Assembly: GCA_020725885.1 (NCBI GenBank)
Contig: DYEA01000017.1
Span: forward strand, 1-64,000
Direction of reading: 5' to 3'
From: Slackia sp.
GTDB taxonomy: Bacteria > Actinomycetota > Coriobacteriia > Anaerosomatales > Anaerosomataceae
DNA: 64,000 bases
The notes under the pieces are model-generated. The model was not told the DNA's origin. It ran no database searches and worked only from the letters and a program-made list of their open reading frames with translations. How positions within the stretch are numbered: position 1 is the stretch's first letter; every line of letters starts with the position of its first letter. Shown here piece by piece: positions 29,397 to 57,412 of this stretch. Made by a program: the position numbers and the translations under genes.

Positions 29397-29433
29397 ATGA
29401 GCGCTCACTGGTTTTTTCTGGGGGATGAGCGGC
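29397..29433. promoter_or_regulatory. LytTR-like 9-mers upstream of the LytTR regulator gene
   Basis: ATGAGCGCT (29397-29405) and ATGAGCGGC (29425-29433), 28 bases apart, in the 114-base gap upstream of the receiver-LytTR gene at 29475. The second copy fits AYGARCGGY exactly and the first differs in one base. The 28-base spacing recurs in the repeat set near 31650. Autoregulation is inferred. TATACT at 29382-29387 is a possible -10 box just upstream. Confidence 0.45.
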
Positions 29434-29474
29434 TCGACGCACGCTGAGTAGACCGGCCGTCGGAAGGAACGCCG

Positions 29475-30218
29475 ATGGATGAGCCCATCACCGTGCTCGT
29501 CGTCGACGACGATCCTGCGATCGTCGACATGATCCAGATGGGGCTCGAAGCGGACGGCATGCGCGTGCTGTCCGCAAGCGACGGGGGCGAGGCGCTCGAC
29601 GTGCTCGCGCGCGAAGCGGTGGATGTCATCCTGCTCGACATCATGATGCCGCGCGTCGACGGCTGGATGGCGCTCATGGAGATCCGCAACAACCCGGAGA
29701 CCGCCGACATCCCCGTCATCATGCTGACCGCCAAGACGCAGGACCTCGCGAAGATCCTGGCGTTCAAACAAGGCGTGCAGCAGTACGTGACCAAGCCGTT
29801 CAACCTCATGGAGCTCTCCGCCCGCGTGCAGAGCCTCGTCAAGCATCGGCCGCGGGGGAGCATGCGGGTCCGGGACGGCGAGAGCGAGTTCCGCAAACTC
29901 GCGGTCCGCAAGGGCGGGCGTACGGTGCTGCTCAGCATCGACGACGTCGTCTACATCTCGGCAAAGAACAAGTCCACGTACGTGCACACCTACGAGAACC
30001 AGTACCTCGTGGACCTTACGCTCACCGAGCTCGAAGAGCGGCTCGGGAAGGAGCGGTTCGAGCGTGTGCACCGGAGCTTCATGGTCAATCTCGAGAAGAT
30101 CAAGGAGATCCTCCGGGTCGACGGCGCGTACGTCATCGTCGTGTCCGATCGTGACGAGACACAGATTCCCGTGGCTAGGCGCCACCTCAAGCACTTCAAA
30201 GAGGCGGTGGGTCTGTGA
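29475..30218 (+). CDS. Response regulator: CheY/PhoB-type receiver + LytTR DNA-binding domain
   Basis: 247 residues. Receiver (1-~120): acidic DDD at the N-terminus, phosphoacceptor Asp in ILLDIMMP, Thr in IMLTAKT, Lys in YVTKPF. LytTR domain (~140-247): LLSIDDVVYISAKNKSTYVHT, RVHRSFMVNLEKIKEILR and DETQIPVARRHLKHFKEAV, typical of the fold that inserts into the major groove of direct repeats. No histidine kinase is adjacent, so it is an orphan in this window. Its stop overlaps the WxLIP-like gene (GTGA), coupling the regulator to a surface protein. Sites resembling LytTR half-sites occur upstream of itself and of several exported proteins. Confidence 0.93.
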   Translation: MDEPITVLVVDDDPAIVDMIQMGLEADGMRVLSASDGGEALDVLAREAVDVILLDIMMPRVDGWMALMEIRNNPETADIPVIMLTAKTQDLAKILAFKQGVQQYVTKPFNLMELSARVQSLVKHRPRGSMRVRDGESEFRKLAVRKGGRTVLLSIDDVVYISAKNKSTYVHTYENQYLVDLTLTELEERLGKERFERVHRSFMVNLEKIKEILRVDGAYVIVVSDRDETQIPVARRHLKHFKEAVGL

Positions 30219-31282
30219 GGCGCCACGCGGCGCTGGCCGTTTTCGTCGTCCTCGTCGCCGCGTTGCTCGTGCCCGGTTCGGCATCGGCGGAGCGGACGCT
30301 CGCGCTGTCGACCGGCTCCTTCGAGTTCCAGGTGGCCGCCGGCCAGACGGGCAAGGGCTCGGTCATCGTGATGAACCCGAGCAAGGAGCCCATCGAGGTC
30401 TACATCTACGCCGGGAACCAGGTGGTCGACGAAGAGGGGCGCGTCTCGTTCGAGATACCGAAACCGGGAGACGTCGGCGGAGTGGGCAACCCGGCTTCGT
30501 GGCTGCAGGTCACGATGTCGGCTGACATGAAGTCGCGCGGCAACGTGCCGTACATCGAGCTCGACCCGAACGAGCGCAAGCAGGTCGACTTCACCTTCGA
30601 GGTTCCCGAAGGTGTCCCGCCGGGCGACCACCAGATCCTGCTGTTCTTCGAGATGGCGCCGCCGAAGAACGTGCAAGCGGATGAGGCGCACGCGCTGGTG
30701 TCGGGACGCCTAGCGGCGCGCATCCGCATCCGCGTGAAGGGCGAGATCGTCGAGCGCGTGCTCATCAAGCCGTTCGTGGTGCGCTCGTTCATCATCGGCG
30801 ACCGCGTGCCATACTCGTACGCGATCCGCAACGAGGGCAACATCGACAAGATCGTGCGGGCGAGTGTCACGCTCATCGCGTCGTCGGGCGCCGAGCTGGT
30901 GAGCCAGGAGCAGACCGAGACGACCGTCTACGCGGGCGCGATGGCGGAGAATGCCGGCGTCGTGCGGCCGCCTGGGACGATGCTCGGCCGCTACACCGTG
31001 CGGCTCGACGTGGAGTACCCGCGCGAGGGGGCGCAGACCGACATCCCTGAGCGGCTGACCGAGCAGCGCACCGTCTGGGTAGTCCCCCTGTGGCTCGCGA
31101 TCGCCGTCATCCTGGTGCTCGGCGGGCTCGCGATGTGGGCATCGTGGCGGGCGAGCTTGAAGGCGGCGAGGCGCAAGATCGAGCGGGAGCGGCGGGAAGC
31201 GCGGCGGCGGGAAGCGCGAGCGCGCGCAGAAGCTGGTTCCGACGAGCCGGTCTGGGCGGACGAGGACTCGGGCGAGCGCTAG
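30215..31282 (+). CDS. WxLIP-like (DUF916/DUF3324-type) membrane-anchored surface protein
   Basis: 355 residues, GTG start overlapping the regulator stop. Signal peptide (AVFVVLVAALLVPGSASA), two beta-sandwich domains (~25-150 and ~155-285) with DUF916-like phrases (FEFQVAAGQTGKGSVIVMNP, PEGVPPGDHQILLFFEM), then a single transmembrane helix (WVVPLWLAIAVILVLGGLAM) and a highly basic cytoplasmic tail (RRKIERERREARRR). This is the layout of WxL-interacting proteins that hold WxL-domain proteins on the Gram-positive wall. Assignment is by layout and weak sequence resemblance. It sits in one operon with the LytTR regulator and faces the small exported proteins. Confidence 0.75.
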   Translation: MRRHAALAVFVVLVAALLVPGSASAERTLALSTGSFEFQVAAGQTGKGSVIVMNPSKEPIEVYIYAGNQVVDEEGRVSFEIPKPGDVGGVGNPASWLQVTMSADMKSRGNVPYIELDPNERKQVDFTFEVPEGVPPGDHQILLFFEMAPPKNVQADEAHALVSGRLAARIRIRVKGEIVERVLIKPFVVRSFIIGDRVPYSYAIRNEGNIDKIVRASVTLIASSGAELVSQEQTETTVYAGAMAENAGVVRPPGTMLGRYTVRLDVEYPREGAQTDIPERLTEQRTVWVVPLWLAIAVILVLGGLAMWASWRASLKAARRKIERERREARRREARARAEAGSDEPVWADEDSGER

Positions 31283-31285
31283 CCG

Positions 31286-31579
31286 CTAGTTCCAGATGAG
31301 CGAGTAAGCCGCGGTGTCCGCGGGGAGCGTCACGACGGTGCCGCTCGTCTTGGAACCGTCGACGCGGACGACGCCGTCCGCCGTCTCGACCTCGAGCGTC
31401 CACGGGGTGTTGGCCTGGACGCGAACGTGGGACGCGTCGATCTGAGTGACGGCCGCGTACGCCCGGACGCGAGCGGTGACGGCGACGGTGCCGCTCGACG
31501 CGGCGATTGCCGTGGACGCGAGGAGCAGCGCGGCGAGCGCCCCGGCCGTGACCGCCGCTGCCACCTTCGTCCGCTTCAC
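31286..31579 (-). CDS. Small exported beta-rich protein
   Basis: 97 residues, GTG start with AAGGAGG upstream. Signal peptide MKRTKVAAAVTAGALAALLL, then ~70 residues of alternating beta-type sequence (TVAVTARVRAYAAVTQIDAS, TPWTLEVETADGVVRVDG) without Cys. The signal peptide and SSGTVAVTARV opening resemble its neighbour at 31807-32217 (TSGTVTVNATV), so the two are probably paralogues. Convergent with the WxLIP-like gene (three bases apart). Preceded by a sigma28-like -10 box and LytTR-like repeats. Likely a wall or surface subunit. Confidence 0.7.
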   Translation of the reverse strand: MKRTKVAAAVTAGALAALLLASTAIAASSGTVAVTARVRAYAAVTQIDASHVRVQANTPWTLEVETADGVVRVDGSKTSGTVVTLPADTAAYSLIWN

Positions 31580-31611
31580 CGTCCTCGCCTCCTTCTGCCT
31601 GCCTGTTGTCT

Positions 31612-31638
31612 ATATCGGCAACAAACGGCAGAATATGA
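31612..31638 (-). promoter_or_regulatory. Sigma28/WhiG-like promoter of the small exported protein gene
   Basis: On the minus strand, -10 box GCCGATAT (31612-31619) matches the SigD/WhiG -10 consensus perfectly. Fifteen bases upstream is TCAT (31635-31638) in place of the consensus TAAA. The predicted transcript would start about 25-30 bases before the GTG at 31579. Confidence 0.55.
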
Positions 31639-31686
31639 GCGACGAACGGCAGTATGAGCCGTTTATCTGACGAACGGTACCGTTCG
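31621..31686. promoter_or_regulatory. Three LytTR-like 9-mers and a 16-bp palindrome
   Basis: ACAAACGGC (31621-31629) and ACGAACGGC (31642-31650) are separated by exactly 12 bases, the LytTR spacing. A third copy ACGAACGGT (31670-31678) follows after 19 bases and is part of a perfect palindrome CGAACGGTACCGTTCG (31671-31686). The first copy overlaps the spacer of the sigma28-like promoter. Confidence 0.55.
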
Positions 31687-31756
31687 GGTGTGCGCAACGG
31701 AGCTGCCGTCAGGCGTTGGGCTGTGGCGAGAGCGGCCGGAGTGTGCGAGGAAAAGA

Positions 31757-31784
31757 GGAAGCCCCCGCGTCTGCGGGGGCTTCC
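31757..31784 (-). terminator. Rho-independent terminator of the 31807-32217 gene
   Basis: A perfect 12-bp inverted repeat GGAAGCCCCCGC / GCGGGGGCTTCC with a 4-base loop lies 22 bases after the stop of the minus-strand gene. In the minus direction it is followed by TCTTTTC. Confidence 0.85.
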
Positions 31785-31806
31785 ATGCGATCCGTGTCGC
31801 AGGTGC

Positions 31807-32217
31807 TTACGGCTGGGCGATCGTGTAGGTTACCGAGCCGCTCACGACCGTGCCGGCGTCGACATCCCAGTCTACGGTGCCGGTGAGGTTGTCGGTATAG
31901 CTCAGGTTGCCGCCCTTGCCCCAGGCGATCGGGGTGGCTGCAGCGGCCGTGCTGGACAGCGTCGTGAACGTGCCCTTGCTGACCGATGCCGACAACGTGG
32001 CGTTCTTGTTGGACTTGCCGGTGACCGTGACGCTGCCTGTTGCTGGCGTGTACGGATCGACATTGGAGAGCGTCACGGTGCCGGGGACCGTGATCTCCAT
32101 CTGCGGATTCACGGTCGCGTTCACCGTGACCGTGCCGCTGGTTGCGGCGTTCGCGTAGGCCACGACGCCGAACACGAGCGCCGCGACTGCGGCTGCGATC
32201 AGTAGCGTCCTTTTCAT
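31807..32217 (-). CDS. Small exported WxL-like beta-sandwich protein
   Basis: 136 residues from ATG 32217 (AAAGGA upstream). Signal peptide TLLIAAAVAALVFGVVAYANA, then a single Thr/Val/Ser-rich beta-sandwich domain (TVTVNATVNPQMEITVPGTV, TGSVTVTGKSNKNATLSASV, ending SGSVTYTIAQP) without Cys. This resembles the beta-sandwich of small WxL proteins, though no Trp-x-Leu motif is present. It ends like the large surface protein at 32425 (VVYTVIAR). A perfect terminator follows. It is preceded by a sigma28-like promoter and LytTR-like repeats. Probably a secreted subunit of the same surface complex as the WxLIP-like protein. Confidence 0.72.
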   Translation of the reverse strand: MKRTLLIAAAVAALVFGVVAYANAATSGTVTVNATVNPQMEITVPGTVTLSNVDPYTPATGSVTVTGKSNKNATLSASVSKGTFTTLSSTAAAATPIAWGKGGNLSYTDNLTGTVDWDVDAGTVVSGSVTYTIAQP

Positions 32218-32300
32218 CGTCAGTTCCTTTCTCCTGTGAACCGGTCGCCCTGCCCGGGCAGTTCCTCCGTGTCTTGGGCCTTCCGGCCCGTCTGGTGCGT

Positions 32301-32328
32301 GTATCGGCCTACGCACCACCTCGCTTGA
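32301..32328 (-). promoter_or_regulatory. Sigma28/WhiG-like promoter of the WxL-like gene
   Basis: On the minus strand, -10 box GCCGATAC (32301-32308) and a -35 TCAA (32325-32328) 16 bases away. The leader to the ATG at 32217 would be ~75-80 bases long and holds two GC hairpins (GGGCCGGAAGGCCC and CTGCCCGGGCAG). Confidence 0.55.
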
Positions 32329-32358
32329 CGCTCGTCTGCCGCACGGCGGAATAGCGTG

Positions 32359-32387
32359 ACGAGCGGCACACGACGCAGATGAGCGGC
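32359..32387. promoter_or_regulatory. LytTR-like 9-mer pair upstream of the WxL-like gene
   Basis: ACGAGCGGC (32359-32367) and ATGAGCGGC (32379-32387), 11 bases between them, about 30 bases upstream of the -35 box. The flanking block is nearly identical to that of the large surface protein gene (35178-35207): GTGCCGCTCGTCAC followed by TATTCCG on the minus strand in both. Confidence 0.5.
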
Positions 32388-32424
32388 GCGTCTCGCGGGA
32401 GGTGGAACCTATGCGTCCGCCGCT

Positions 32425-35100
32425 TCATCGCGCGATCACCGTGTAGACGACGTAAGCAGAATACGTGCCAGGGTCGGTGTCCCACGGCACGTCGATGCGG
32501 ATCGCGTCGACATAGGCGCGCTCGCCGCTCGCCTGGCTGAAGAGCGACCCGAGCTGCGTCGTGAGGCCCAGCGCAGAAGCCGCGCCGGAAATCGACTTGA
32601 TGAGATCGAAAGTGACGTTGGCCCGTACGAGCACGCCGAGGTTCGGGCGCTCGTAGACTACGCCGGGCACGACGTCGCCGAAGTCGACCTGCGTTTCAGA
32701 GAGCGTCAGCTCAAGCCACGGGACGCCAGGTACGGCGGTGAAGACGGTCTCGGCGCGGGCGATCGTGAGGCCGGAGCTTGCGGTCCAGATCGCGCTTAAG
32801 CGGTACTCGCTCGCGACGGGGAGGCTCATCGTCGGCGCCGTCCAGACGAGCGTGACCTGCGCTCCGCTGCCGACCGAGAGGCCGGCGCTCTCGCGGGTAT
32901 AGCCGCTGCCCGTGCCGTAGGTCTGCCACGAGCCGTCGGACGCGAGGTATCCGTCGCCCGGGCCGAAGACGCCGTCGGAGTTCTCGTCCCGCCAGACCAC
33001 CCAGCGCGCGGTGGTGTTCGCGAGCGCGACCGCGCCTTCGTTCGCGAAGGTCGTGGAGACCGTCAGCGTCGATTCGACCGCATCGCCGCCGGTCACCGTG
33101 AGCGCGCTGATGCGAGCCCGGTACCCGACGTAGAACGGCACCGTGGCGATGACCCCGCCTGAGCTGTTGAGCAGCGTCACTGTCCACGTGCCCACAGGTG
33201 CTGTGGTGCCGATCGTGTACGCGTCCTGCGCCACGCCTGTGGAGTCGGCGTTGATGAGGTTCGACGTCCGCACTACCGTGCCGTTCGGGTCGGCCCACCG
33301 GAAACGCACCTGCGTGCCGGCGGTGAGCCCCATGCCCCGGGAGTACACGATGTCTCCGAGCTGGAACGTGTCTTGCGGCGAGCCGAACCCGCCGACGCCG
33401 TACGTCGCGAGCGAGCTCACGGTCGTCCGGTCGACGGCGGTCGCTGTGTGCGGGTTGGCGGTGCAGGTGAGGGTGGTGTCGTCGATGGTGCCCGACGCGG
33501 TGCCAGCGGGGACGCGCACGCGCACCACGACCTCCGCGCCCGCCCCGTTCGGGCCGAGGGTGAGCGTGGTGATGGGCGTGATGCCGTCTGCGGCGAGCAC
33601 CTGGACGGTCCAGCCGCGCGAGGAGACCGCCGACAACGTCACCGTGCGCGTCGTCGGCCAGCTGTTGACGACGGTGTGTCGGTACGAGACCGAGCTCCCG
33701 GCGCCGGCCGGGGCCGAGGCGGCGGCCGGAGTCACGCTGAGCGCCGCTCGCGCGGTGGTGGTGTCGTAGCCCTTGCCCTTGAGGTTGGGAGCGCCCACGA
33801 CCTGGCCTTGGATCGTCGTCACGTTCACGGTGCCGAGCGTGGCGCCGGATGGCACCTGGACGAGCACCGATATGGTCGTGCTTGCTCGCGGAGCGAGCGT
33901 CACTGAAGTTATGACGGAGGCGGCCGCGGCGTCGCGGATCTCGGCAGGCCAGCCTTTGTCCGAGGTCGCCGTGAGCGCGATCGTGCGCGTCTCCTCGGTG
34001 TTGTTCGTGACCGTGTTGCGGTAGGTGATCGTCTGCCCCGGCGCCATCGAGCCGTACTGGTCAGGGATGATGATCACAGGGCCGACTGTCGTGATGTCGA
34101 CGGCAGGATCCGTGGCTGACGGTACGTCGCGGTGGGTAGCGGTGACGGTGAGCGTGTCCCGGGTGCCGTCTGGAGCGTTCGCGGGAACCTTCAGGAGCAC
34201 CGCGATGTCGACAGAGGCTCCGGGGGCGAGGGTCACGGTCGTGACCTGTGCGCCTGTGGCTGCGAGGGTGATGGTGGCGGTCCACTTCTTCGACGACGAG
34301 GCCGAAAGCACGAACGTCGACAGCGTGTTGCCGAGGTTCCTGACGGTGTGGACGTACGTCACCGTGGTGTCGGCCGAGGCGCCAGACGCGCGGTCCGGTT
34401 CGACGGAGACGCCGTACCGCTGCAGCGCGACGACGTCCGTCGAGTCCCACGCGCTGCCGAGCGAGGAGTAGAACTGCATCCGGATCGGCGTGTCCGGCGG
34501 TACGCCGAGGGCGCTGAGCGGGACGCGAGCCTCGATCTCGACGCCGCCCGGAGCGCCGGCGCCGGAGATGGCGGCCGCGACTTGCGCTCCCAGCGAGCCG
34601 GCGGGCTTGCCAGCGTCTCCTGGCATCGGGTCGCCGTTGGCCGCGTCCGCCGGGGCGTAGCGATACAGCGTGCCGGAGGAGAACGTGTTCCCGCCGGTGA
34701 GCTTGTACACGACGGCCATGTCGGTGCTCTCGAGACGGCCGTCGCCGTCGAGGTCGAGGTAGACGGTGTAGTCCGGAGCCGCCGCGCCGCCGCCCGTGGC
34801 CGCTCGGCGGACGTAGTGGTAGAGGTAGGCGCCGTCGTACGTTGCAGCAACCACGGTGAGGTCCGTGTTCGAGCTCGAGGAATCGCCTGTGGCGTCGTAT
34901 ACGCAGTTCGCAGGATCCTCGAAGACGCGGGCCCAATCGGCGAACGCGCCATCGATCGTGATGGTGGTGCTGACGAGCGCCACGGTCGGGAACGTCGGGG
35001 CAAGCAGCATCGCGGCGAGCAGCACCGCGAGCACGGCGAAGCGGCGGCGCGCGCCGCCACGTCCGTTCCTCGAACGGCCCTGAAGTGCTGTGCTGCGCAT
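32425..35100 (-). CDS. Large exported multi-domain surface protein
   Basis: 891 residues from ATG 35100 (AAGGG upstream). Signal peptide, then a CBM9/DOMON-like domain (ITIDGAFADWARVFE... DYTVYLDLDGDGRLES, ~45-230), three tandem Ig-like domains of ~100 residues each with the shared pattern YxHTVxN...TLSAxSS..W...TLxPGA...VxVPAG..GT (~240-560), an EF-hand-like calcium stretch (WRDENSDGVFGPGDGY, ~740) and a C-terminal beta domain (LSETQVDFGDVVPG... YSAYVVYTVIAR) resembling the small WxL-like protein. No wall-sorting motif or transmembrane helix at the C-terminus, so it must be held by another protein, plausibly the WxLIP-like product. Adhesin or scaffold is inferred. Confidence 0.82.
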   Translation of the reverse strand: MRSTALQGRSRNGRGGARRRFAVLAVLLAAMLLAPTFPTVALVSTTITIDGAFADWARVFEDPANCVYDATGDSSSSNTDLTVVAATYDGAYLYHYVRRAATGGGAAAPDYTVYLDLDGDGRLESTDMAVVYKLTGGNTFSSGTLYRYAPADAANGDPMPGDAGKPAGSLGAQVAAAISGAGAPGGVEIEARVPLSALGVPPDTPIRMQFYSSLGSAWDSTDVVALQRYGVSVEPDRASGASADTTVTYVHTVRNLGNTLSTFVLSASSSKKWTATITLAATGAQVTTVTLAPGASVDIAVLLKVPANAPDGTRDTLTVTATHRDVPSATDPAVDITTVGPVIIIPDQYGSMAPGQTITYRNTVTNNTEETRTIALTATSDKGWPAEIRDAAAASVITSVTLAPRASTTISVLVQVPSGATLGTVNVTTIQGQVVGAPNLKGKGYDTTTARAALSVTPAAASAPAGAGSSVSYRHTVVNSWPTTRTVTLSAVSSRGWTVQVLAADGITPITTLTLGPNGAGAEVVVRVRVPAGTASGTIDDTTLTCTANPHTATAVDRTTVSSLATYGVGGFGSPQDTFQLGDIVYSRGMGLTAGTQVRFRWADPNGTVVRTSNLINADSTGVAQDAYTIGTTAPVGTWTVTLLNSSGGVIATVPFYVGYRARISALTVTGGDAVESTLTVSTTFANEGAVALANTTARWVVWRDENSDGVFGPGDGYLASDGSWQTYGTGSGYTRESAGLSVGSGAQVTLVWTAPTMSLPVASEYRLSAIWTASSGLTIARAETVFTAVPGVPWLELTLSETQVDFGDVVPGVVYERPNLGVLVRANVTFDLIKSISGAASALGLTTQLGSLFSQASGERAYVDAIRIDVPWDTDPGTYSAYVVYTVIAR

Positions 35101-35139
35101 CGGTGCCCTTCGTCGCTGCCGTTCCGGCAGTCGCCCCAT

Positions 35140-35166
35140 ATATCGGTACGCGCGTAAGCAACGACC
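35140..35166 (-). promoter_or_regulatory. Sigma28/WhiG-like -10 of the large surface protein gene
   Basis: On the minus strand ACCGATAT (35140-35147) lies ~40 bases before the ATG at 35100. The -35 region 15 bases upstream reads GGTC and does not match TAAA, so the call rests on the -10 and on similarity with the other three promoters. Confidence 0.4.
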
Positions 35167-35197
35167 AGGCCATTCCGCCGAATGTCGGAATAATGTG

Positions 35198-35226
35198 ACG
35201 AGCGGCACGAAATCCCGACGAACGAC
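35198..35226. promoter_or_regulatory. LytTR-like 9-mer pair upstream of the large surface protein gene
   Basis: ACGAGCGGC (35198-35206) and ACGAACGAC (35218-35226), 11 bases apart. The second copy sits in the loop of an inverted repeat TCCCGAC/GTCGGGA (35213-35219/35232-35238) that could also be the terminator of the upstream UPF0210 gene, which makes it less certain. Confidence 0.4.
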
Positions 35227-35266
35227 CGCTTGTCGGGACCTGCATCGAGCCTGCCGCGACGCCGCC

Positions 35267-36631
35267 TCAGTTCCGCAGGCTCGCGAGCGGCGCAGGCACG
35301 CGCCCGCCACGGCGCACGAGCGTCGTCCCGGCCCACTCGTTCACGCTCATCACGGGCGCCGAGCCGAGCAGCCCGCCGAACACGGCGGTGTCTCCCGGAC
35401 TCTTTCCGGGCACGGGGATGATGCGTGCAGCGGTGGTCTTGCCGTTGATGACGCCGATCGCGCAGGCGTCGGAGATGATGGCGGCGACGGTCTCGACGGG
35501 CGTGTCGCCGGGAATCGCGATCATGTCGAGCCCCACGGAGCAGACGGCCGTCATCGCCTCCAGCTTCTCGAGCGTGAGCGCTCCTGACGCGGCCGCGCGC
35601 GACATCGCGGCGTCCTCGGACACGGGGATGAACGCGCCGGAAAGCCCGCCGATGCTCGATGTCCCCATCGCGCCGCCCTTCTTGACGGCGTCGTTCAGAA
35701 GCGCGAGCGCGGTCGTCGTGCCCGGCCCGCCGCAGCGCGCCACCCCGATGGCCTCGATGATCTCGGCGACGCTGTCGCCTTCTGCAGGCGTCGGCGCGAG
35801 CGAGAGGTCGACGATGCCCATCGCGACGCCGAGCCGAGCCGCCGCCTCCCGCGCGATGAGCTCGCCAGCCCGCGTGATCTTGAACGCCGTGGCTTTGATG
35901 GCCTCCGCGACTTCTGTGAGGTCGGCGTCTTCAGGAAGCGAGCGAACGACGGCGCGGACGACGCCCGGCCCCGAGATGCCGACGTTCACGCAGGCGTCCG
36001 GCTCGCCTGCGCCGTGGACGGCGCCAGCCATGAACGGGTTGTCCTCCACCATGTTGCAGAACGCGACGAGCTTCGCGCACCCGACGCCGTCGCGGTCGGC
36101 CGTCGCTTCGGCGGTCGCGCGCACAGCTTCGGCCACCATGAGCACGGCGTCCATGTTGATGCCCGCGCGAGTCGAGGCGACGCTCACGGACGCGCACACG
36201 CGCTCCGTCGTCGAGAGCGCTTCTGGCAGCGAGGCGATGAGCGCCCGGTCGGCAGCGCCCACGCCCTTGTGCACGAGCGCGGAGAAGCCGCCGATGAAGT
36301 CGATGCCGATGGCCTGCGCAGCGCGCTCCAGCGCGTGCGCGATCGGGGCGAGGTCGCCCGCGCCCGCGGGCGCGATCTCGGCCACAGGCGTCACCGCCAC
36401 GCGCGTGTTGACGATCGGCACGCCGAACTCGCGCGCGAGACGCTCGCACGTCGGCACGAGGTTCTCGGCGGCCCGAACGACGCGCTCGTACACGCGCTCC
36501 GCGACCCCGTCGACCGAATCCGCGGCGCAGCCGGTTAGCGACAGCGACAGCGTCACCGTCCGGATGTCGAAGTGCTGCTGGGTGATCATCGTGAGGGTCT
36601 CGGCGATCTCCTCAGGCGAGAGCTGGAGCAC
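35267..36631 (-). CDS. UPF0210 (DUF711, PFL-like) family protein
   Basis: 454 residues, GTG start with GGGGAGG upstream. Full-length member of the UPF0210 family, a fold related to glycyl-radical enzymes but without their radical glycine motif: VAERVYERVVRAAENLVPTC, IDFIGGFSALVHKG, NMVEDNPFMAGAVHG, GRCGGPG-type segment (VARCGGPGTTTALALLN) and KSPGDTAVFGGLLGSAPVM. Biochemical role unknown. It follows the UPF0237 ACT-domain gene by 12 bases; this pair is conserved across many bacteria and archaea, suggesting an ACT-regulated partner. Confidence 0.92.
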   Translation of the reverse strand: MLQLSPEEIAETLTMITQQHFDIRTVTLSLSLTGCAADSVDGVAERVYERVVRAAENLVPTCERLAREFGVPIVNTRVAVTPVAEIAPAGAGDLAPIAHALERAAQAIGIDFIGGFSALVHKGVGAADRALIASLPEALSTTERVCASVSVASTRAGINMDAVLMVAEAVRATAEATADRDGVGCAKLVAFCNMVEDNPFMAGAVHGAGEPDACVNVGISGPGVVRAVVRSLPEDADLTEVAEAIKATAFKITRAGELIAREAAARLGVAMGIVDLSLAPTPAEGDSVAEIIEAIGVARCGGPGTTTALALLNDAVKKGGAMGTSSIGGLSGAFIPVSEDAAMSRAAASGALTLEKLEAMTAVCSVGLDMIAIPGDTPVETVAAIISDACAIGVINGKTTAARIIPVPGKSPGDTAVFGGLLGSAPVMSVNEWAGTTLVRRGGRVPAPLASLRN

Positions 36632-36643
36632 GGCCGCCTCCCC

Positions 36644-36919
36644 TCAGATGCGGTGCATGAGCCGGAAGACGTCCTCGCGCTGCAGCGTGATCTGCAGCCC
36701 GAGGTCGTTGGCGACTTCCGCGAGCCGCGCCTGCACGCGGTCGAACGCGCACGCGTCTTCGTCCACCGTCACGAGCATCGTCATGGAGAACACGCCAGAG
36801 ATGATCGTCTGGCGGATGTCCTCGATGTTCACGCCGCACTCCGCGAGCGCGCCCGAGACGGCGGCGACGATGCCGACGCGGTCCTCGCCGAGCACGGACA
36901 AGATGGCGCGGGTCTTCAC
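36644..36919 (-). CDS. UPF0237 ACT-domain protein
   Basis: 91 residues: a single ACT domain with TRAILSVLGEDRVGIVAAVSG and CGVNIEDIRQTIISGVFSMTMLV, then the second half of the fold (ACAFDRVQARLAEVANDLG). ACT domains bind amino acids or other small ligands. Always paired with UPF0210; together they are a likely regulatory/catalytic unit of unknown substrate. Preceded on the minus strand by GAGGAGGGAC. Confidence 0.93.
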   Translation of the reverse strand: MKTRAILSVLGEDRVGIVAAVSGALAECGVNIEDIRQTIISGVFSMTMLVTVDEDACAFDRVQARLAEVANDLGLQITLQREDVFRLMHRI

Positions 36920-37063
36920 GGGCGTCCCTCCTCACAAACTGTTCGCCGCTCCACGGTATACTCGCGGCATGAGGGGTGCAAGCGGCGCTCGGGTGAGGAT
37001 CCGCCTAACCAGAGCGTCGCTGCGCCGTAGCCGGCGGAGCGTGCGTCGACCAGGGAGCGTGGC

Positions 37064-38124: not shown

Positions 38125-38280
38125 AGGGCCGCCTCTTCGGGGTCATCCGTCGGCGCGCTCGTGGAGATGATGTCTCTCATGTCGTTATGCACAGCACGTA
38201 GGGTACCAAGACGCGCCGGAGAATACCCGTGCAGTGCTAGAATCGTGCGACACGGTGCCCGAGTTCAGAAGGGGCGAGGC

Positions 38281-38586: not shown

Positions 38587-38588
38587 CC

Positions 38589-46483: not shown

Positions 46484-46489
46484 GGCCGC

Positions 46490-46702: not shown

Positions 46703-46706
46703 CGCG

Positions 46707-47357: not shown

Positions 47358-47399
47358 GGGCGTCTCAGGCGGAATCCGGCGCCTCGCCTCTCAGGCAGG

Positions 47400-47429: not shown

Positions 47430-47450
47430 GGAGGCGAGAGGAGGAGCGTC

Positions 47451-48111: not shown

Positions 48112-48230
48112 GACGTGTGTCCAGCAGATGGTCCCGCAGTGCAACCGTCACGAGGCGCATCGGCTGAAGAGGATGGATCAGGCGAGTGACGTGGTAGCGC
48201 TGCAAGCGAACTTGCAGCCGTTCGCCCGCG

Positions 48231-51031: not shown

Positions 51032-51043
51032 GGTCCCCCCTCG

Positions 51044-52180
51044 TCAGTCTACGGTGGTGCGTGCTCCCTCGGGCGGCGCAGAGCGCGGCGACCACTCGTA
51101 CCGCCGCGCACCGGCGTAGTCCCGCCGGTCGGCGAGCCGCGCGAGCCGCACCACGTCCCCCGTGCGCGGTGCGTGCACGAACCAGCCGCCGCCGACGTAG
51201 ATCCCGACGTGGTACACCGGATTGCCGAAGAATACCGCATCGCCAGGCTGCAAGTCAGCCGGCGCGACCCGCTCGCCGAGCGCGAACTGCGCCCGCGAGT
51301 AGTGCGGCAGTTGCACGCCGTGCTGGCGGAACACATACATGACGAGCCCCGAGCAGTCGAAGCCGGCCGTCGGGCTCTCGCCGCCCCAGACGTACGGCAC
51401 GCCGAGGTACGCGAGCGCCGTCTCGACCGGCGAGCCGGGCGTCACGGTGACGGTGCCGTCGGGCGAGCCGGCGAGCAGGCGCCGCAGGAACTCGGCCTCC
51501 TCTTGCTGCCGCGCCGCTGCCTGCTCTGCGAGCAGCCCCAGCACCTCTGCCTGCGCGTTCGCGAGCAGCTCCTGGCGCTCTTGGATCCGGAGCTCGATCT
51601 CGATCTTGCGGGCGGCGAGCTCGAACTCGAGCTCTTCGGCGCGCCGAGCGGCCGCTTCGGCTTCCTCGGCGGTGCGCCGAGCGAGGTCGCGCTGCGCCTC
51701 GAGGGAGGCGGCAGTGCGGGCATCCGCCTCGCCGATCGCACCTAGGAACCGCAGGCGCGCCAGCAGGTCCGCAAGCGACTTCGCCTGGAGCAGCGTGGCG
51801 AGCGGGTGCTCCGCCCCGTCGCGGTAGATGGCAGCGGCCCGCTCCTCGAGCAGCCGCTGCTGCTCTTGGAGGGCGACTTCAGCTGCCGCGAGGTCGACCA
51901 CGGCAGCGTCCGCGCGGGCGCGCGCAAGCGCGAGCTGGTCGCGCGCCGCGTTCCACTCCTCGGCGGCGATGCCAAGTTCGCGGTCGAGCGCTTCGAGCTC
52001 GGCTGTGAGCGAGTCCACGCGCGACTGGAGGTCGGCGAGGCGAGCGGTGTCAGGCGCTGCTGCCGTCGGCGCAGGAGAACGGTCCGGCGGAAGTGCCGCA
52101 GCAGGGAAGGTGCCGCCGAGCGCGACTGCTACGGCGAGTGCGGCTGCCACGAACATGCGGTATGAACGCCGATGAATCAT
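51044..52180 (-). CDS. Exported coiled-coil NlpC/P60 peptidoglycan endopeptidase
   Basis: 378 residues from ATG 52180 (weak site). Signal peptide, ~220 residues of coiled coil with the same PcsB-type hinge as two other hydrolases here (ERAAAIYRDG... LLQAKSLADLLARLRFL), then an NlpC/P60 catalytic domain: catalytic Cys in FDCSGLVMYVF and His in HVGIYVGGGWFVHAP, plus AYLGVPYVWGG. It should cut the stem peptide of peptidoglycan. Probably activated when its coiled coil binds an FtsX-like protein. Confidence 0.93.
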   Translation of the reverse strand: MIHRRSYRMFVAAALAVAVALGGTFPAAALPPDRSPAPTAAAPDTARLADLQSRVDSLTAELEALDRELGIAAEEWNAARDQLALARARADAAVVDLAAAEVALQEQQRLLEERAAAIYRDGAEHPLATLLQAKSLADLLARLRFLGAIGEADARTAASLEAQRDLARRTAEEAEAAARRAEELEFELAARKIEIELRIQERQELLANAQAEVLGLLAEQAAARQQEEAEFLRRLLAGSPDGTVTVTPGSPVETALAYLGVPYVWGGESPTAGFDCSGLVMYVFRQHGVQLPHYSRAQFALGERVAPADLQPGDAVFFGNPVYHVGIYVGGGWFVHAPRTGDVVRLARLADRRDYAGARRYEWSPRSAPPEGARTTVD

Positions 52181-52223
52181 GCCGAACCGTACTCTAGCAC
52201 GGCTCATGCCAGCGATGAACACG

Positions 52224-52252
52224 GCACGAGCCGGGTGTTCCCCGGCTCGTGC
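52224..52252 (-). terminator. Possible terminator of the cytochrome operon
   Basis: A perfect 12-bp inverted repeat GCACGAGCCGGG (52224-52235) / CCCGGCTCGTGC (52241-52252) lies 22 bases after the cytochrome stop. No T-run follows in the minus direction (CGTGTTC), so it could instead protect the 3' end of the message. Confidence 0.5.
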
Positions 52253-52274
52253 GTCGTCTGCAACACGTTGCGGA

Positions 52275-55200
52275 TCACGGCCAGTACGGGCTGATCGCGG
52301 TGTTGTGCCCGCCGCAGTTCGTCGTGCAGTTGTCCTTGGGCCAGTTGGCTCGGCCGCTGTTGAGCGTGATGTTCGAGAGGCCGATGCGAGTCAAGCCGGA
52401 CGTGGCTCCAGCATAGATACCGTCGGCATTCACGTACACGAGCAGCCGCGGCCGCTTCCAGCCGTGCGGGACCTTGATGTGGCACCGGATGCAGCCGCCG
52501 TCGGTGATGTTGCCCTGGTGGTCTCCAGTGCTATGCACGTTATTCGACCAGGTGCCACTGGGGCCGTTGAGGTCGTGACATTTCGCACAGATGATGGTGG
52601 TTGAGCTCATGCCGTTTGCGGTGTTCTGCAGGAACGCTGTCTTCCAGTCCGTCGGATACGCCGGATCGAGCAGCCACTGCACGCTCGATCCGTGCGGGCC
52701 CTTTGCGCTCGCGGTGGAGTTTGTGTGGCACTCCGTGCAGGTCATCATCGAGTTCGTCGTCCACGAGCTTCCTGATACGAAGAAGCTGACTGTGGGGACT
52801 TCCCACGTGACCGTCCGCTGCGTTCCGCCCGAGTCAACGAACGTGAACGAGGACTTCATGCCGACGCTCTGGCCGAGGACGTTGTGGTACGAGAAGTTGC
52901 TCGGGTTGAACTCGAGCGCCTGGTCGGTCGACGTGTAGGTCGCGTTGTTGCTTCTGGTCGCCGTGAACGGCTGGCCGCTGTAGGAGCTGTGGCACTTGAA
53001 GCAGAGGTACGCCTCGTAGTCAGTGCTCTGGCCGTCGAGGCGCTCGGTCGTCCAGTTGCCGGCGGGCACCGCCGTCCAGTTTGCAGGCCACGCGGTGGGC
53101 TTCACGCCGGTCGCGCCGCGGATCGCCTCGCCCGCAAGCGAGCTGCCCGTGGTGTGGCGGCCGCGCCGGAGCGCGTGCGGGTCGTGGCAGTCCACGCACT
53201 CCGCGTGGCGGTTCGATGCGCCGAGCTGCGAGGCGGTCTCGGTGTCGCTGTGGCGGCCAGAGCGCTCCACCGGGTGGCGGTACGTCAGGCCGAACGCGGT
53301 TTGGACGTTGATGGCATCGATCGCGGTCGTGTGGCACGCACCGCCCGTGCAGTTCGGTGTGCGCGAGCTCGTGTGGCACGCGTAGCACAGCGCCTCTTCC
53401 GCGTATGCGGATGTGTTGTTGCGCCGCTGGCTGATGTGGGCGCCAGGCGGGCTTGCACCGACGTAGTACGCCGTGAGTGCCGTCAGGCGTGCATTCTGCG
53501 AGGCGTGTGGATCGTGGCACGAGCTGCACTCGGGCGTCATCCGCGGGACGAGCGAGTTCTTATGGCCGCTGCTCGCCCAGTCCAGGCCGGTCGCCGACTT
53601 GTTCCAGCCAGGGAAGAACGGCGCCGTCTGGTCGGAGAACGCTACAGTGTACGGGACGATCGTCGTGGCATTCGTGGCCGATGCCGGCGGCGTTCCGTCG
53701 TGGCAGCGCAGGCAGAAGTCGGTCGGAGATGTCGGGGCCGCCAGCTTCGTGTTGTCGGGGTCGCTTGCGCGGGTCATGTCCCACACCTCGGTGCCGCCTT
53801 TGCTGACGGAGTGCACGTTGTGGCAGTTCGCGCAGGTGAGCGAGCCGGAGGTCACGACCAGCCGGTCGTACAGCCCCGTGAGCGTCCAGTCGTAGAGCCA
53901 CGGGGTGTCAAGGCCGTTGCTCGAAGAGAGGTTGGCGCGCAGCCGCAGCTTCGGGTACGCGGCCGTGCTGTACGCGGTCAGGTCTACCGGCCCGGAGTTC
54001 GCGCCGCTCACGAGCGTCTGCCACGACGAGCCGTTGTAGCCCTCGACGGTCACGGTCAGCCCGGTGTTCGCCGGCTCGCTTTCGGTCCAGGTCAGCACGC
54101 CCCAGTGGTGCACCGAACCGGCCGGCGTGATGTCCGGCGTCGTCGCAGTGCCGGAAGAGTAGTACAAGACAACCGAGTACGAGGGCGGATCGGCTGTCGC
54201 GAACGCGATGCCGGCACCCTCGTTCTGCGTCCACGGCGTGCCGGTGAGCGTCTCCCAGTTGCCCCAGTTGGCCGCGGTGCCGGCGTTGGATGCCGGGATG
54301 CGGATGCGCGCCATCGCGGTGCTCGTGCCGCCCTGGATGGCGTACAGGTAACCGCCGTTCACGCCGTCCCACTTCAAGTCGCAACCGTCCGCGAGCGCGG
54401 CTCCGAACGGGAACTTGTTGAGGTCCGTCTTCGCAGGCGTGCCGCCCAGGTTCGTCACGATGACGGTGTCGTCTGCACCGCCGGTGTCCTTGCCGATCAT
54501 CATCAGGTACTCGACGCCGCCGCCGTCGCGGAAGTACGCGAGGCGGTTGTAGTCGGTGTTGCTGGTGTTGCGAGTGACCTGGAGGTTGCTGTTCGTGAAG
54601 TTCTGGTTGCCGGTGAGCACGCCGGGGTTGGCGAGGTAGTACAGGTTGCCAACGCCGGTTCCGGTGGCGGTGCCGTTACGCCGCAGCACGAACAGCCGGT
54701 TGGCGGTGGGCGCGTACGCGATGGCCGATCCGGCCCCGAGGTTGGTGGCCGTGCCGCCTGGCGCGAACACCATGTTGTTCTCACTGTTGTTGTCGTAACG
54801 GAACCAGTTGATGTTGCTGGAGCCGCCGCCTGCCGAGATGTACACCACGCTCGAGCCGGTGTTGACCGCGGACTGCGCCCCCTGCCCGAACGCCGAGTTG
54901 AAGGTGATAGCGATGGACGCCCAGGTGCCATTGCCGGAGTTCGCCAGCGGCGTGTAGGCGGTGATCTGCGGGCTCGTTTGTGTGTTGCGCGTCACATAGA
55001 CTTTTCCGCCAGCCGAGAACAGCACGGAGCCAGACCCCGTGTTGAACGACCCGTTGACCGGCGGGTCGAAGCGCCCGTAGTTGTCGGCGTTCCACGCGTC
55101 GTCAGCCGGCCGGTACTGCTCGAAGTCCTGGGCGCCGCCATCGTGCGCGAAGAGGTAGGTCTCCGCTGGCGGGTCGATGACCGCTGTATACCGCGACAGC

Positions 55201-56528
55201 ACGATCTCACCGCCTGCGGTGTTCGTGGTAGTGGCGTTGACGAGCGTATAGGTGTTGAAGTCGCTCTGCAGGGTGTGCGCAAGCACCGTCGAGGTCTCGG
55301 TGACGTACGACCCGCTCGTCACTTGGTACGGATGGCGCGAGTTGTACGTCGTGAACTGCGCCTGCACGTCGCGGCCGTTCCACGCGTACGGCTTGGTGCC
55401 GACGAGGCGCGTGTCGGTCGTCGAGTTCGAGTGGCACGCGAAGCACACCGCAGCGCCGCCTGCTTGCGATGCCGTCGTGCCCTGCGACCGGTAGTCGACG
55501 AGCTTGTCGGCGCGGCTCGCGTGCTTGTTGTGGCAGGCGGTGCACTGGATGCCGGGGTTCGGGTCGGTGGTGTTCGAAAGCACCGTCGACGGGCCGTGCG
55601 CGGCCGTCGCGTACCCGGCCGAGTTGTGGTCGCCGCCGGAATCGGCGTAGGCGTTCGCGCCGCCGACGATCGCGATCGGGCCGGAGTTGGCGCCGTGGCA
55701 GCCGAAGCAGAAGGCGTTGCCCTGCGGGCTGTCGTTGCGGCTGTAGTAGGTGTAGGTGTTCGCCGGATACTCGATGCGCAGCATCCGCCGGTAGCTCAGC
55801 GACGCCTGGTACACGCCGGCCGCGTCGTAGAAGAACGGCGAGCGGTGCGGCGTGTGGCACGCGGTGCACTCCTGCCGGGTGGAGGTCATGTTCGCGTTGC
55901 GGTGCTTCGATCCGGCAGTCACGGTGCCGGTGTCGAAGAACGACGCCTCGACGTTGTAGGTGCTCTTCGCGCCGGTGGCGAACGATGCGCCGGTCGAGCC
56001 GTGGCAGTAGTAGCACGACTCCTTCGTCTGGTACGGGAAGCGGTACGCGCCGTGGACCTGGTGGCACCGCGGGCACGAGACCTGGCTCGGGTCGGTGCGG
56101 TTGCTATGCACGTTCGGCGACATGTTGTACGAGACGCCCGACTTGTTGCCGAGCGAGTCGCGCGCAACGACGGCGTAGTACCAGACGTAGGACTGCGTGG
56201 TCTCAGCGGAGGCGGCGTTGACGATGGCGCTGGTGCCGGTGACGCCGGTCGCGACCGGGGTGAGGCCGCGGGAGACGATGGTGGCGGCGGTAACGGGGAT
56301 GACGTCGCGGTAGACGTCGTAGACGATCGCGTGGCCGGACGCGTCTGTCGATGCGCTCCACTGGACCGTGACGGTCGGCGACGTCAACAGGCTCGCGCGC
56401 GGCGTGACGAAGACGTCGCGCATGGTCGGCGTCGTCGGCGTCGCGGCGTACGCAACGCCGGCTCCGAGCGCGCACGCGACCGCGGCCGCGAGCACCGCCG
56501 CTCGCAGCAGGGTCTGCCATCTGCTCAT
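52275..56528 (-). CDS. Giant 16-haem c-type cytochrome with a haem-free central region
   Basis: 1417 residues from ATG 56528 (GGAGGTGG upstream; a GTG at 56537 lies within that site). Signal peptide (LLRAAVLAAAVACALGAGVAYA), a fibronectin-like domain (~45-130), six CxxCH motifs at ~152-362, a ~500-residue haem-free part (400-890) of repeated beta-blade-like segments (SVLFSAGGKVYVTRNT, SVVYISAGGGSSNINWFRYD) ending in a beta-sandwich, then nine CxxCH and one CX4CH (NCTGGACH) to residue ~1390. No transmembrane helix or wall anchor. It is expected to be matured outside the membrane and carry electrons at the surface. One operon with the upstream small exported protein. Confidence 0.93.
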   Translation of the reverse strand: MSRWQTLLRAAVLAAAVACALGAGVAYAATPTTPTMRDVFVTPRASLLTSPTVTVQWSASTDASGHAIVYDVYRDVIPVTAATIVSRGLTPVATGVTGTSAIVNAASAETTQSYVWYYAVVARDSLGNKSGVSYNMSPNVHSNRTDPSQVSCPRCHQVHGAYRFPYQTKESCYYCHGSTGASFATGAKSTYNVEASFFDTGTVTAGSKHRNANMTSTRQECTACHTPHRSPFFYDAAGVYQASLSYRRMLRIEYPANTYTYYSRNDSPQGNAFCFGCHGANSGPIAIVGGANAYADSGGDHNSAGYATAAHGPSTVLSNTTDPNPGIQCTACHNKHASRADKLVDYRSQGTTASQAGGAAVCFACHSNSTTDTRLVGTKPYAWNGRDVQAQFTTYNSRHPYQVTSGSYVTETSTVLAHTLQSDFNTYTLVNATTTNTAGGEIVLSRYTAVIDPPAETYLFAHDGGAQDFEQYRPADDAWNADNYGRFDPPVNGSFNTGSGSVLFSAGGKVYVTRNTQTSPQITAYTPLANSGNGTWASIAITFNSAFGQGAQSAVNTGSSVVYISAGGGSSNINWFRYDNNSENNMVFAPGGTATNLGAGSAIAYAPTANRLFVLRRNGTATGTGVGNLYYLANPGVLTGNQNFTNSNLQVTRNTSNTDYNRLAYFRDGGGVEYLMMIGKDTGGADDTVIVTNLGGTPAKTDLNKFPFGAALADGCDLKWDGVNGGYLYAIQGGTSTAMARIRIPASNAGTAANWGNWETLTGTPWTQNEGAGIAFATADPPSYSVVLYYSSGTATTPDITPAGSVHHWGVLTWTESEPANTGLTVTVEGYNGSSWQTLVSGANSGPVDLTAYSTAAYPKLRLRANLSSSNGLDTPWLYDWTLTGLYDRLVVTSGSLTCANCHNVHSVSKGGTEVWDMTRASDPDNTKLAAPTSPTDFCLRCHDGTPPASATNATTIVPYTVAFSDQTAPFFPGWNKSATGLDWASSGHKNSLVPRMTPECSSCHDPHASQNARLTALTAYYVGASPPGAHISQRRNNTSAYAEEALCYACHTSSRTPNCTGGACHTTAIDAINVQTAFGLTYRHPVERSGRHSDTETASQLGASNRHAECVDCHDPHALRRGRHTTGSSLAGEAIRGATGVKPTAWPANWTAVPAGNWTTERLDGQSTDYEAYLCFKCHSSYSGQPFTATRSNNATYTSTDQALEFNPSNFSYHNVLGQSVGMKSSFTFVDSGGTQRTVTWEVPTVSFFVSGSSWTTNSMMTCTECHTNSTASAKGPHGSSVQWLLDPAYPTDWKTAFLQNTANGMSSTTIICAKCHDLNGPSGTWSNNVHSTGDHQGNITDGGCIRCHIKVPHGWKRPRLLVYVNADGIYAGATSGLTRIGLSNITLNSGRANWPKDNCTTNCGGHNTAISPYWP

Positions 56529-56562
56529 CGTTCCCACCTCCGGCTCACGCGTTCCATATATC

Positions 56563-57249
56563 TTACCAAAGCCTCGTGACCTGGCTCACTACGAGACTGC
56601 CCGAATCGTTGAGCGGATCGAGCGTCGTGAGGCGCCATCCGTCCTTTGTGTACCGCAGCGGGATGGCGATCGTGTGCTCCGAATCGATGCCGCCGTCGTG
56701 CCACACGACCTGAGCGAACGCGAGGTAGACGGTGGTTGTGCTGGCCGTGCGGATCTGCACCGAGGGCAGCGGCGCGCCGCTCACGAGCTTCGGCTGTGCC
56801 GCGAGGCGGCGCTGGGCGACGGCTTCCGGGGAGAGGCCTTCGTCGGCTGCGGCGATCGCAGCGAGCGCACCGGTGTCGCCGGCCGTCAGCGCCTTCAGTG
56901 CGCGCTCGAGGGTCTGCTTGAGCGAAGCCGCGTTGTCGCGCACCGTCGCCTCGGCCTTCGAGACGTACTCGTCGTACGCGGCGCGGTCTTCGGGGGAGAG
57001 GTCCTCGAGGGAGGACGTCGCGAGCTTCTGGAGAGCGCGCTCGGGAAGGGCCAGCGGGTCGCGGATGCCGGCGGTGTCGGGTGCCGTGCGGGCCTCCGGC
57101 GGAGGAACGATGCCGCCGTCCGCTGGGCCGGCGCCCGGCTCGAGCTGCACGCCGGGCGCGCCGGCCGATCCGGGGCGCAAGAACGCCACGCCGAGGGCGG
57201 CAACCGCCACCACGGCCAGCACGGCGATCGTTGTCTGCGCGCGGGTCAG
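56563..57249 (-). CDS. Exported or anchored protein of unknown function upstream of the cytochrome
   Basis: 228 residues if translation begins at the CTG at 57249. N-terminal membrane helix (TTIAVLAVVAVAALGVAFL), a Pro/Gly-rich linker, a helical region (~60-140; SPEDRAAYDEYVSKAEATVR) and a C-terminal beta region with VYLAFAQVVWHDGGIDSEHT. No Cys and no haem motif. The CTG start is proposed because AAGGAGG lies five bases before it, while upstream ATGs (57285, 57324) lie at or before the predicted transcript start (~57284). The cytochrome gene follows after 34 bases, so this is likely a partner, perhaps for anchoring. Confidence 0.68.
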   Translation of the reverse strand: MTRAQTTIAVLAVVAVAALGVAFLRPGSAGAPGVQLEPGAGPADGGIVPPPEARTAPDTAGIRDPLALPERALQKLATSSLEDLSPEDRAAYDEYVSKAEATVRDNAASLKQTLERALKALTAGDTGALAAIAAADEGLSPEAVAQRRLAAQPKLVSGAPLPSVQIRTASTTTVYLAFAQVVWHDGGIDSEHTIAIPLRYTKDGWRLTTLDPLNDSGSLVVSQVTRLW

Positions 57250-57290
57250 CTCGGCCTCCTTCGTGCGATGGGCAGACCAGTACATCACGG

Positions 57291-57317
57291 TTATCGGTAC
57301 AGGGCTTTGTGATTTGA
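57291..57317 (-). promoter_or_regulatory. Sigma28/WhiG-like promoter of the cytochrome operon
   Basis: On the minus strand, -10 ACCGATAA (57291-57298), 15-base spacer, -35 TCAA (57314-57317). Predicted start ~57284 gives a ~35-base leader to the CTG with AAGGAGG at the right distance. Confidence 0.55.
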
Positions 57318-57359
57318 GGCACACGCAGCGGGTTTCCGCCAGAAGCAGGGATGCGTGCG

Positions 57360-57412
57360 ACGAGCGGCTGGCTAGCGGAGTGATGAACGGCAGGTTTGCG
57401 AATATGAACGGT
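57360..57412. promoter_or_regulatory. Three LytTR-like 9-mers upstream of the cytochrome operon
   Basis: ACGAGCGGC (57360-57368), ATGAACGGC (57383-57391) and ATGAACGGT (57404-57412). The last two are separated by exactly 12 bases; read on the minus strand they are ACCGTTCAT and GCCGTTCAT, the first matching the published LytTR half-site [TA][AC][CA]GTTN[AG][TC] at every position. The outermost copy ends 18 bases from the insertion sequence. Confidence 0.6.

Follow-up and report, generated by a model that had tools for sequence, protein, structure and literature searches.

A response regulator with receiver and LytTR domains, encoded at position 29475 of a 64,000-nucleotide stretch of Slackia sp. 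DNA (contig DYEA01000017.1 of assembly GCA_020725885.1, positions 1 to 64,000; this whole stretch is hereafter the window), probably activates WhiG-type promoters of surface-protein, cytochrome and diguanylate cyclase (DGC) genes and represses its own gene. The original prediction from this DNA, that one LytTR regulon joins a WxL-like surface cassette to the cytochrome operon, is supported by computational tests: the proposed binding word is enriched in the intergenic regions of the window, is conserved in relatives, whose control genes have few such sites, and corresponds to a known LytTR-family sequence, and the cytochrome arrangement is orthologous in two genomes of the same genus. The source genome amounts to 1.83 Mb in 17 contigs; genes were called in this analysis by a simple coding-score method, and window positions are used throughout. 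The nearest named relatives are Coriobacteriaceae bacterium EMTCatB1 and further Coriobacteriia, including Anaerosomatales; the same-genus genomes compared are G001, G002 and G003. The window features on which the argument draws are the following.

29425..29433, minus strand: AlgR-type box in the regulator leader, downstream of TATACT; probable autorepression site (from sequence)
29475..30218, plus strand: LytTR response regulator (receiver plus LytTR, 247 aa), the proposed regulator (PF00072, PF04397)
30215..31282, plus strand: WxLIP-like exported protein (PF06030, a marginal 28.1 bits against a cut-off of 27.3)
31286..31579, minus strand: protein B, 97-aa exported protein with an N-x-x-WxL motif (from sequence)
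31613..31619, minus strand: RCCGATA of gene B, sigma-28/WhiG-like -10 (from sequence)
31621..31678, minus strand: gene B box array, ACCGTTCGT (31670), GCCGTTCGT (31642) and GCCGTTTGT (31621), conserved in relatives
31807..32217, minus strand: protein C, 136-aa exported protein (from sequence)
32302..32308, minus strand: RCCGATA of gene C, with TCAA at 32325-32328 and a spacer of 16 (from sequence)
32359..32387, minus strand: gene C box pair, GCCGCTCAT (32379) and GCCGCTCGT (32359) (from sequence)
32425..35100, minus strand: protein D, large exported Ig-like/NEW3-type surface protein (domain search)
35141..35147, minus strand: RCCGATA of gene D, 59 bases from the box (from sequence)
35198..35206, minus strand: gene D box, with a near-copy at 35218 (from sequence)
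52275..56537, minus strand: multihaem cytochrome, 1420 aa with 15 CXXCH motifs (sequence and domain search)
56563..57249, minus strand: first gene of the cytochrome operon, which probably starts at a CTG (57249) following AAGGAGG (start inferred by eye from relatives)
57292..57298, minus strand: RCCGATA of the cytochrome operon, with TCAA 15 bases upstream (from sequence)
57360..57412, minus strand: cytochrome-operon box array, ACCGTTCAT (57404), GCCGTTCAT (57383) and GCCGCTCGT (57360) (from sequence)

The CTG start (57247-57249) is probable because RCCGATA directly adjoins the GTG/ATG starts upstream of it. The ATG start of gene D at 35100 was picked by eye, and the domain search was run from 35103, one codon longer.

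The prediction was built on a 9-mer, AYGARCGGY, whose nine exact copies (29425, 31642, 31670, 32359, 32379, 35198, 57360, 57383 and 57404) were all found on the plus strand. The near-copies at 29397, 31621 and 35218 carry one mismatch apiece, and the 9-12-9 geometry (a start spacing of 21 bases) is correct for 31621/31642 and 57383/57404. The window contains 25 occurrences of the word, against a mean of 9.8 and a maximum of 19 in 100 shuffles. Eleven of the 25 are intergenic, a density of 2.79 per kb versus 0.233 per kb in genes (approximately 12-fold, binomial P ~1e-7), and each of 2000 permuted motifs has at most five intergenic matches; two of the intergenic copies (2794 and 16716) lie outside the proposed regulon. 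The window sites are real and far from chance.

By its sequence, the half-site is better described as an AlgR box, RCCGTTCRTC. AlgR binds CCGTTCGTC and, more weakly, CCGTTTGTC and other variants, with sites in both orientations (PMC4064291). The CCGTTCGTC-type box is present at predicted targets: the window boxes contain CCGTTCGT, CCGTTCAT, CCGCTCGT and CCGCTCAT, and the weak copy at 31621 contains CCGTTTGT. Since RCCGTTCRTC is the published AlgR sequence and AlgR is a LytTR regulator, the likely binding protein is the LytTR regulator encoded at 29475. Its two domains score well above threshold (PF00072 at 96.6 bits, cut-off 30.2; PF04397 at 92.6 bits, cut-off 22.6), and its DNA-contact motif reads FERVHRS, which departs from the FhRhHRS motif described for LytTR domains (PMC4227749) in having E at the first hydrophobic position. 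The receiver is closest to PleD/AdeR/PhoP types, and the best NCBIfam model, BtsR, reaches 112 bits, under its cut-off of 246.

The predicted system resembles AlgZR of Pseudomonas aeruginosa in its LytTR-domain response regulator, in the use of CCGTTCGTC with the weaker CCGTTTGTC, in multiple sites per promoter in both orientations, and in the control of surface structures (PMC4064291). It differs in having a receiver that is PhoB/PleD-like by sequence, in the genes adjoining the regulator (nfnB and the WxLIP-like gene, with no adjacent AlgZ-type kinase), in its WxL-like and multihaem cytochrome targets, and in promoters that look WhiG-type. The regulator would thus work like AlgR without being classed as AlgR, an assignment made from its receiver, models and neighbours. 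Direct repeats with a spacing of usually 12 and occasionally 11 or 13 bp are also described upstream of the promoters of LytTR regulatory-system operons such as HdrR/BrsR (PMC6193735); unlike those, the arrays described here also include 3-bp gaps (spacing 12) and triple arrays, with sites mostly 59-114 bases upstream of the -10.

The 9-mer had been expected to be scarcer inside genes than upstream of them. This holds in the window, although single sites sampled from the genome lie mostly in genes: RCCGTTCRTC has 64 matches genome-wide versus 40 for the reversed pattern and, among the 30 matches with returned loci, only 5 are intergenic. The single word is not distinctive genome-wide; tandem arrays, the distance to CCGATA and conservation mark the real sites. 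A single-site genome scan was therefore dropped as a target finder, because 25 of the 30 sampled sites lie in genes. Arrays behave differently from single words: pairs of CCGYTYRTC number 72 in 30 genomes versus 38 for the reversed pattern, and 25 versus 6 within the genus. Their start spacings peak at 12 (14 pairs), 20 (17) and 21 (11), and these three spacings account for 7, 11 and 9 of the 47 pairs outside the genus. All five pairs in the source genome lie upstream of genes (a 119-aa gene, a DGC gene, B, C and the cytochrome operon). Among the 30 returned pair loci, 8 pairs fall within called genes and 22 do not; of the latter, four have no following same-strand gene on a short locus and one overlaps a called start.

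Upstream regions in relatives outside the genus display the same sites at the same genes. Across 13 loci, gene B has 16 sites, all of them forward (shuffle mean for forward sites 0.2); gene C has 5 forward and 2 reverse sites in 11 loci (0.0), and the regulator has 13 forward and 25 reverse sites in 46 loci (0.2); for gene D the signal is weak, with 3 forward and 1 reverse in 14 loci (shuffle mean 0.1, largest 2). Nine control gene families yield four sites in total on both strands: one in 15 loci for DUF951, three in 36 for nfnA, and none for WxLIP (4 loci), DUF711 (7), ACT (20), M23 (23), atpH (10), atpI (5) and nfnB (32). The shuffle statistics overstate significance because the loci are phylogenetically related, but the control families were drawn from the same loci. 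Within the genus, orthologous box arrays stand at the cytochrome operon in G001 and G002. That the sites are codon-driven, GC-rich 9-mers with no function, as the abundance of single 10-mers inside genes might suggest, is scarcely credible: it is contradicted by the intergenic density, the array geometry and the same-gene conservation across families, and for the arrays it is refuted by their conservation.

All four target promoters of the window carry a further element, RCCGATA, placed 59 (B, C and D) or 70 (cytochrome) bases after a box start. The flagellar/WhiG promoter consensus is TAAA and GCCGATAA (PMC8325347), and the target promoters fit the sigma-28/WhiG -10, GCCGATA(A). Boxes in this genome lie mostly 59-114 bases upstream of the -10, with further boxes at 31 and 10 bases in gene B. 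The composite of box and CCGATA occurs nine times in the source genome versus once for the reversed control, seven of the nine being intergenic and facing a gene, and 24 versus 4 times in the three same-genus genomes; in two of those 24 the box is a further one at a cytochrome promoter already counted. Outside the genus, forward CCGATA is found 10, 10 and 8 times upstream of B, C and D, versus 0.7, 0.4 and 0.7 in shuffles. In an alignment of 56 promoter rows, which are not independent and include a few CCGACA or second matches, the first column of the putative -35, 16 bases before RCCGATA, is T in 36 of 55 rows and is followed by A-rich columns. Three of the four letters of TAAA are matched at the C, cytochrome, DGC and 193-aa genes. 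Helical phasing of the box-CCGATA distances is not claimed, as the period is 10.4 in this genome (p 0.04) and 9.65 in relatives, with rows that are not independent.

The genome encodes a WhiG-family sigma factor (TIGR02479, 282.6 bits, cut-off 189.6) as its sole strong FliA/WhiG protein. Its gene adjoins xerC, a response regulator gene, rpsB and tsf (names read from translations), and no flagellar genes were recognised in the 20 kb of sequence read there. WhiG-family sigma factors are present in 22 of 23 relatives, the single miss being G003, a 92%-complete assembly in 120 contigs, and the two described isolates of the lineage are non-motile. The target promoters look sigma-28/WhiG-type. A comparable case is the WhiG regulon of Rubrobacter, where non-flagellar actinobacterial WhiG promoters (TAAA / GCCGATAA) stand at surface-appendage genes and at genes for diguanylate cyclases or phosphodiesterases; in Rubrobacter radiotolerans, such enzyme genes and pilus genes lie behind predicted WhiG promoters whose starts have been mapped (PMC8325347). 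The upstream LytTR boxes and the cytochrome operon and WxL-like targets set the present promoters apart from that regulon.

Composite promoters outside the window extend the list of candidate targets:

C15:97140, intergenic and facing its gene: composite promoter of a PAS-PAS-GGDEF DGC
C15:127537, intergenic and facing its gene: composite promoter of a 192-residue protein of unknown function (the 193-aa gene)
C16:7391, intergenic and facing its gene: composite promoter of a CWB2 cell-wall-binding surface protein

Promoters at the same positions recur in G001, G002 and G003 at the B, C, D, GGDEF and 193-aa genes, and in G001 and G002 also at the cytochrome operon. The first scan for pairs outside the window gave C7:156545, C6:269539, C7:104963 and C7:288500, of which C7:156545 was kept: it is the box pair of the 119-aa gene, with similar promoters in G003, G016 and G042. 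Two composites were set aside as chance occurrences, C6:269502 within a YggT-like gene (the pair C6:269539 overlaps it) and C7:96954 over the 3' end of a mutY-like gene. A GAF-HD-GYP-type protein is found behind a similar promoter in G012. The regulon appears to be larger than originally predicted, with the addition of an enzyme of cyclic di-GMP (c-di-GMP) metabolism, the CWB2 protein and two genes of unknown function.

The box predicted upstream of the regulator itself is present, in the orientation opposite to that of the boxes at the four target promoters. The window has TATACT at 29382-29387 and, 37 bases further on, the box at 29425; this box is kept in both same-genus loci that were read (L041 and L042), and the near-copy at 29397 is not. 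Of 48 loci, 30 have a box within 150 bases upstream of the regulator (21 of 30 loci with the cassette and 9 of 18 others), a number that none of 1000 permuted motifs reaches (mean 1.0, maximum 17). Many relatives have it in the same orientation 42 to 50 bases ahead of the start codon and between 5 and approximately 40 bases after a TATACT/TACAAT-like -10. Inverted box pairs occur with a 6-base gap in seven loci and a 4-base gap in one, those of L046 and L047 lying upstream of the -10. Because the box lies downstream of a sigma-70-like -10, it probably serves the regulator as an operator for autorepression. The repeats at the HdrR/BrsR operons themselves serve positive feedback (PMC6193735), whereas the own-gene site here is not in an activator position.

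Homologues of the regulator with some match at E 1e-30 are present in 57 of 61 genomes, and with at least 62% identity in 53 of 61, the source genome included in both counts. The gene that follows the regulator in 49 loci of relatives is WxLIP in 31, DUF711/DUF951 without the cassette in 12 and another gene in 3, with a contig end in the remaining 3. The regulator has a wider distribution than the surface cassette, which is absent beside it in 12 of the 49 loci. A presence/absence test of the regulator was uninformative: G016, G042 and G059 are missing nfnB as well, and in G057 the regulator's position, inferred from the spacing in G060, falls beyond the contig start. No genome cleanly lacking the regulator was found among the relatives examined.

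Several observations weigh against this predicted regulon. Single boxes are frequent within genes, as described above. Strict boxes at the regulator are missing from 18 of 48 loci and are present in only 4 of the 12 loci clearly without the cassette, and in L050, L063 and L075 the sole regulator box is upstream of the -10, a position less clearly consistent with repression. The CWB2 promoter is absent among the composite matches of the three same-genus genomes, and the 119-aa gene of the source genome has boxes without CCGATA. Outside the genus the composite is near background (69 matches in 21 genomes versus 54 reversed); because it exceeds the control only slightly there, the case for WhiG coupling appears strongest within the genus and, judged from upstream regions, at genes B and C of other families. 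The putative -35 matches at most two letters of TAAA at the B, D and CWB2 genes. The -35 and the 119-aa gene also bear on a different account, which accepts a LytTR-driven regulon but takes RCCGATA for a second operator or a variant sigma-70 element instead of a WhiG -10: the D and CWB2 genes have no TAAA-like -35, and the 119-aa promoter combines its boxes with a sigma-70-like arrangement. We consider this account unlikely. At seven promoters of the source genome the distance between RCCGATA and a box is 59-61 or 70-71 bases, the column that would start the -35 is predominantly T, and a WhiG-family sigma factor is present in 22 of the 23 relatives searched, in a lineage with two non-motile described isolates.

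The identity of the binder is likewise open to challenge by another protein of the genome.

G000:C7:23651-24349 (L105 7649-8362), minus strand: second LytTR regulator, of a BtsS/BtsR-like pair (LytTR, 98.3 bits)

This protein could bind the same motif, either in place of the regulator at 29475 or together with it, and its presence also counts against our reading. Many relatives have LytTR regulators 33-41% identical to the window regulator, and G016 and G042 each have a single LytTR protein, in the setting of the second type, yet keep box promoters (for example at the 119-aa gene). The absence of the window regulator from G016, G042 and G059 is probably an assembly gap, since its neighbour nfnB is also missing, and boxes are not conserved at the second locus, where 13 genomes yield three scattered single intergenic boxes. 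Binding by the second protein or by both is distinctly improbable. A LytS-type kinase gene adjoins the second locus, with universal-stress-like, small membrane and solute-symporter genes downstream (names partly by eye), and this arrangement is largely conserved in relatives.

The mechanism we favour, with the 29475 protein as the binder and WhiG at the target promoters, would operate as follows. The receiver-LytTR protein would bind RCCGTTCRTC boxes, often in tandem and 12 or 20-21 bases apart. Target promoters would have GCCGATA as the -10, often with a TNAA-like -35 another 15 or 16 bases upstream, and the phosphorylated regulator on tandem boxes may recruit or stabilise WhiG holoenzyme at these weak -35 promoters. 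Genes B, C and D, the multihaem cytochrome operon, the PAS-GGDEF DGC, the CWB2 protein and the two genes of unknown function would be switched on together. At the regulator's own sigma-70-like promoter, a box after the -10 (an inverted repeat in some relatives) would block transcription and provide negative feedback. The binder, the use of WhiG and the direction of each of these effects are predicted. Lastly, c-di-GMP may feed into the same switch, as suggested by the DGC among the targets, the GAF-HD-GYP promoter in G012 and the connection of c-di-GMP with WhiG that is known from other actinobacteria (PMC8325347).

The surface cassette has its own parallels. The WxLIP-like gene overlaps the regulator gene by 4 bases, and the two are probably co-transcribed. 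In Firmicutes, WxL/WxLIP surface clusters combine a WxLIP protein with small exported proteins bearing WxL motifs, and the same juxtaposition is seen here, in an actinobacterial order and with a LytTR regulator. Unlike in those clusters, no WxL Pfam domain was detected in proteins B, C and D at E 0.1. The WxL tripeptide is found in 15 of 16 aligned family B proteins (counted by eye), in a shared N-x-x-W-x-L, and these proteins may act as the WxLIP protein's minimal WxL partners. A 16-base palindrome, CGAACGGTACCGTTCG, at 31671-31686 includes the distal gene B box and is kept in L041 and L042. The gene C promoter (32302-32367) contains, after the box, a block TCAC(A/G)CTATTCCGCCGTRCGGCA with inverted-repeat flanks, also seen in some relatives, which is possibly a second operator.

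Further observations concern single loci. A UPF0236-type transposase gene (57452-58870) ends approximately 40 bases upstream of the cytochrome box array and lies between the array and a tRNA, with boxes and RCCGATA intact; an Rfam search of the window returned tRNAs only. A box pair at G001:C1:146318-146346 (L168) is located 104 bases upstream of a secreted peptidase-like gene, in that genome only among four of the genus. Conserved intergenic sequence in G001 and G002 (L118 3751-3813 and L119 3376-3438) contains a box-like site and CCCCGATA, with both flanking genes on the other strand. Two family-f5 genomes have a 68-69-residue membrane-type protein beside nfnB (L125 4041-4250 and L126 3973-4179), with box-like sites and CCGATA upstream of its gene.

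To our knowledge, the control of extracellular electron-transfer machinery in Gram-positive metal reducers is poorly known. A surface programme answering to the electron acceptor is described in cultured Parvivirga hydrogeniphila, as its pili-like appendages form only with insoluble ferrihydrite; the words LytTR and sigma factor are absent from that text (PMC9686372). The literature excerpts retrieved on LytTR together with WhiG, FliA, type IV pili or extracellular electron transfer and cytochromes contain no such regulon; in one of them (PMC13194489) LytTR is simply one entry in an enumeration of mutated Geobacter regulator families. We tentatively suggest, at somewhat less than even confidence, a two-key switch for solid electron acceptors, in which the LytTR regulator (sensing a surface or redox signal) and c-di-GMP-linked WhiG are both required and the regulator limits itself. 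If so, surface fibres, giant cytochromes and c-di-GMP synthesis would be made together, a LytTR factor would act through sigma-28-type promoters, and the pili-like appendages of Parvivirga would have a candidate controller. For an order that has cultured members, the result names a regulator, the word it is predicted to bind, a sigma factor and a small set of targets. It also suggests that recognition of the AlgR box extends far beyond Proteobacteria, so that regulons could be predicted across Coriobacteriia.

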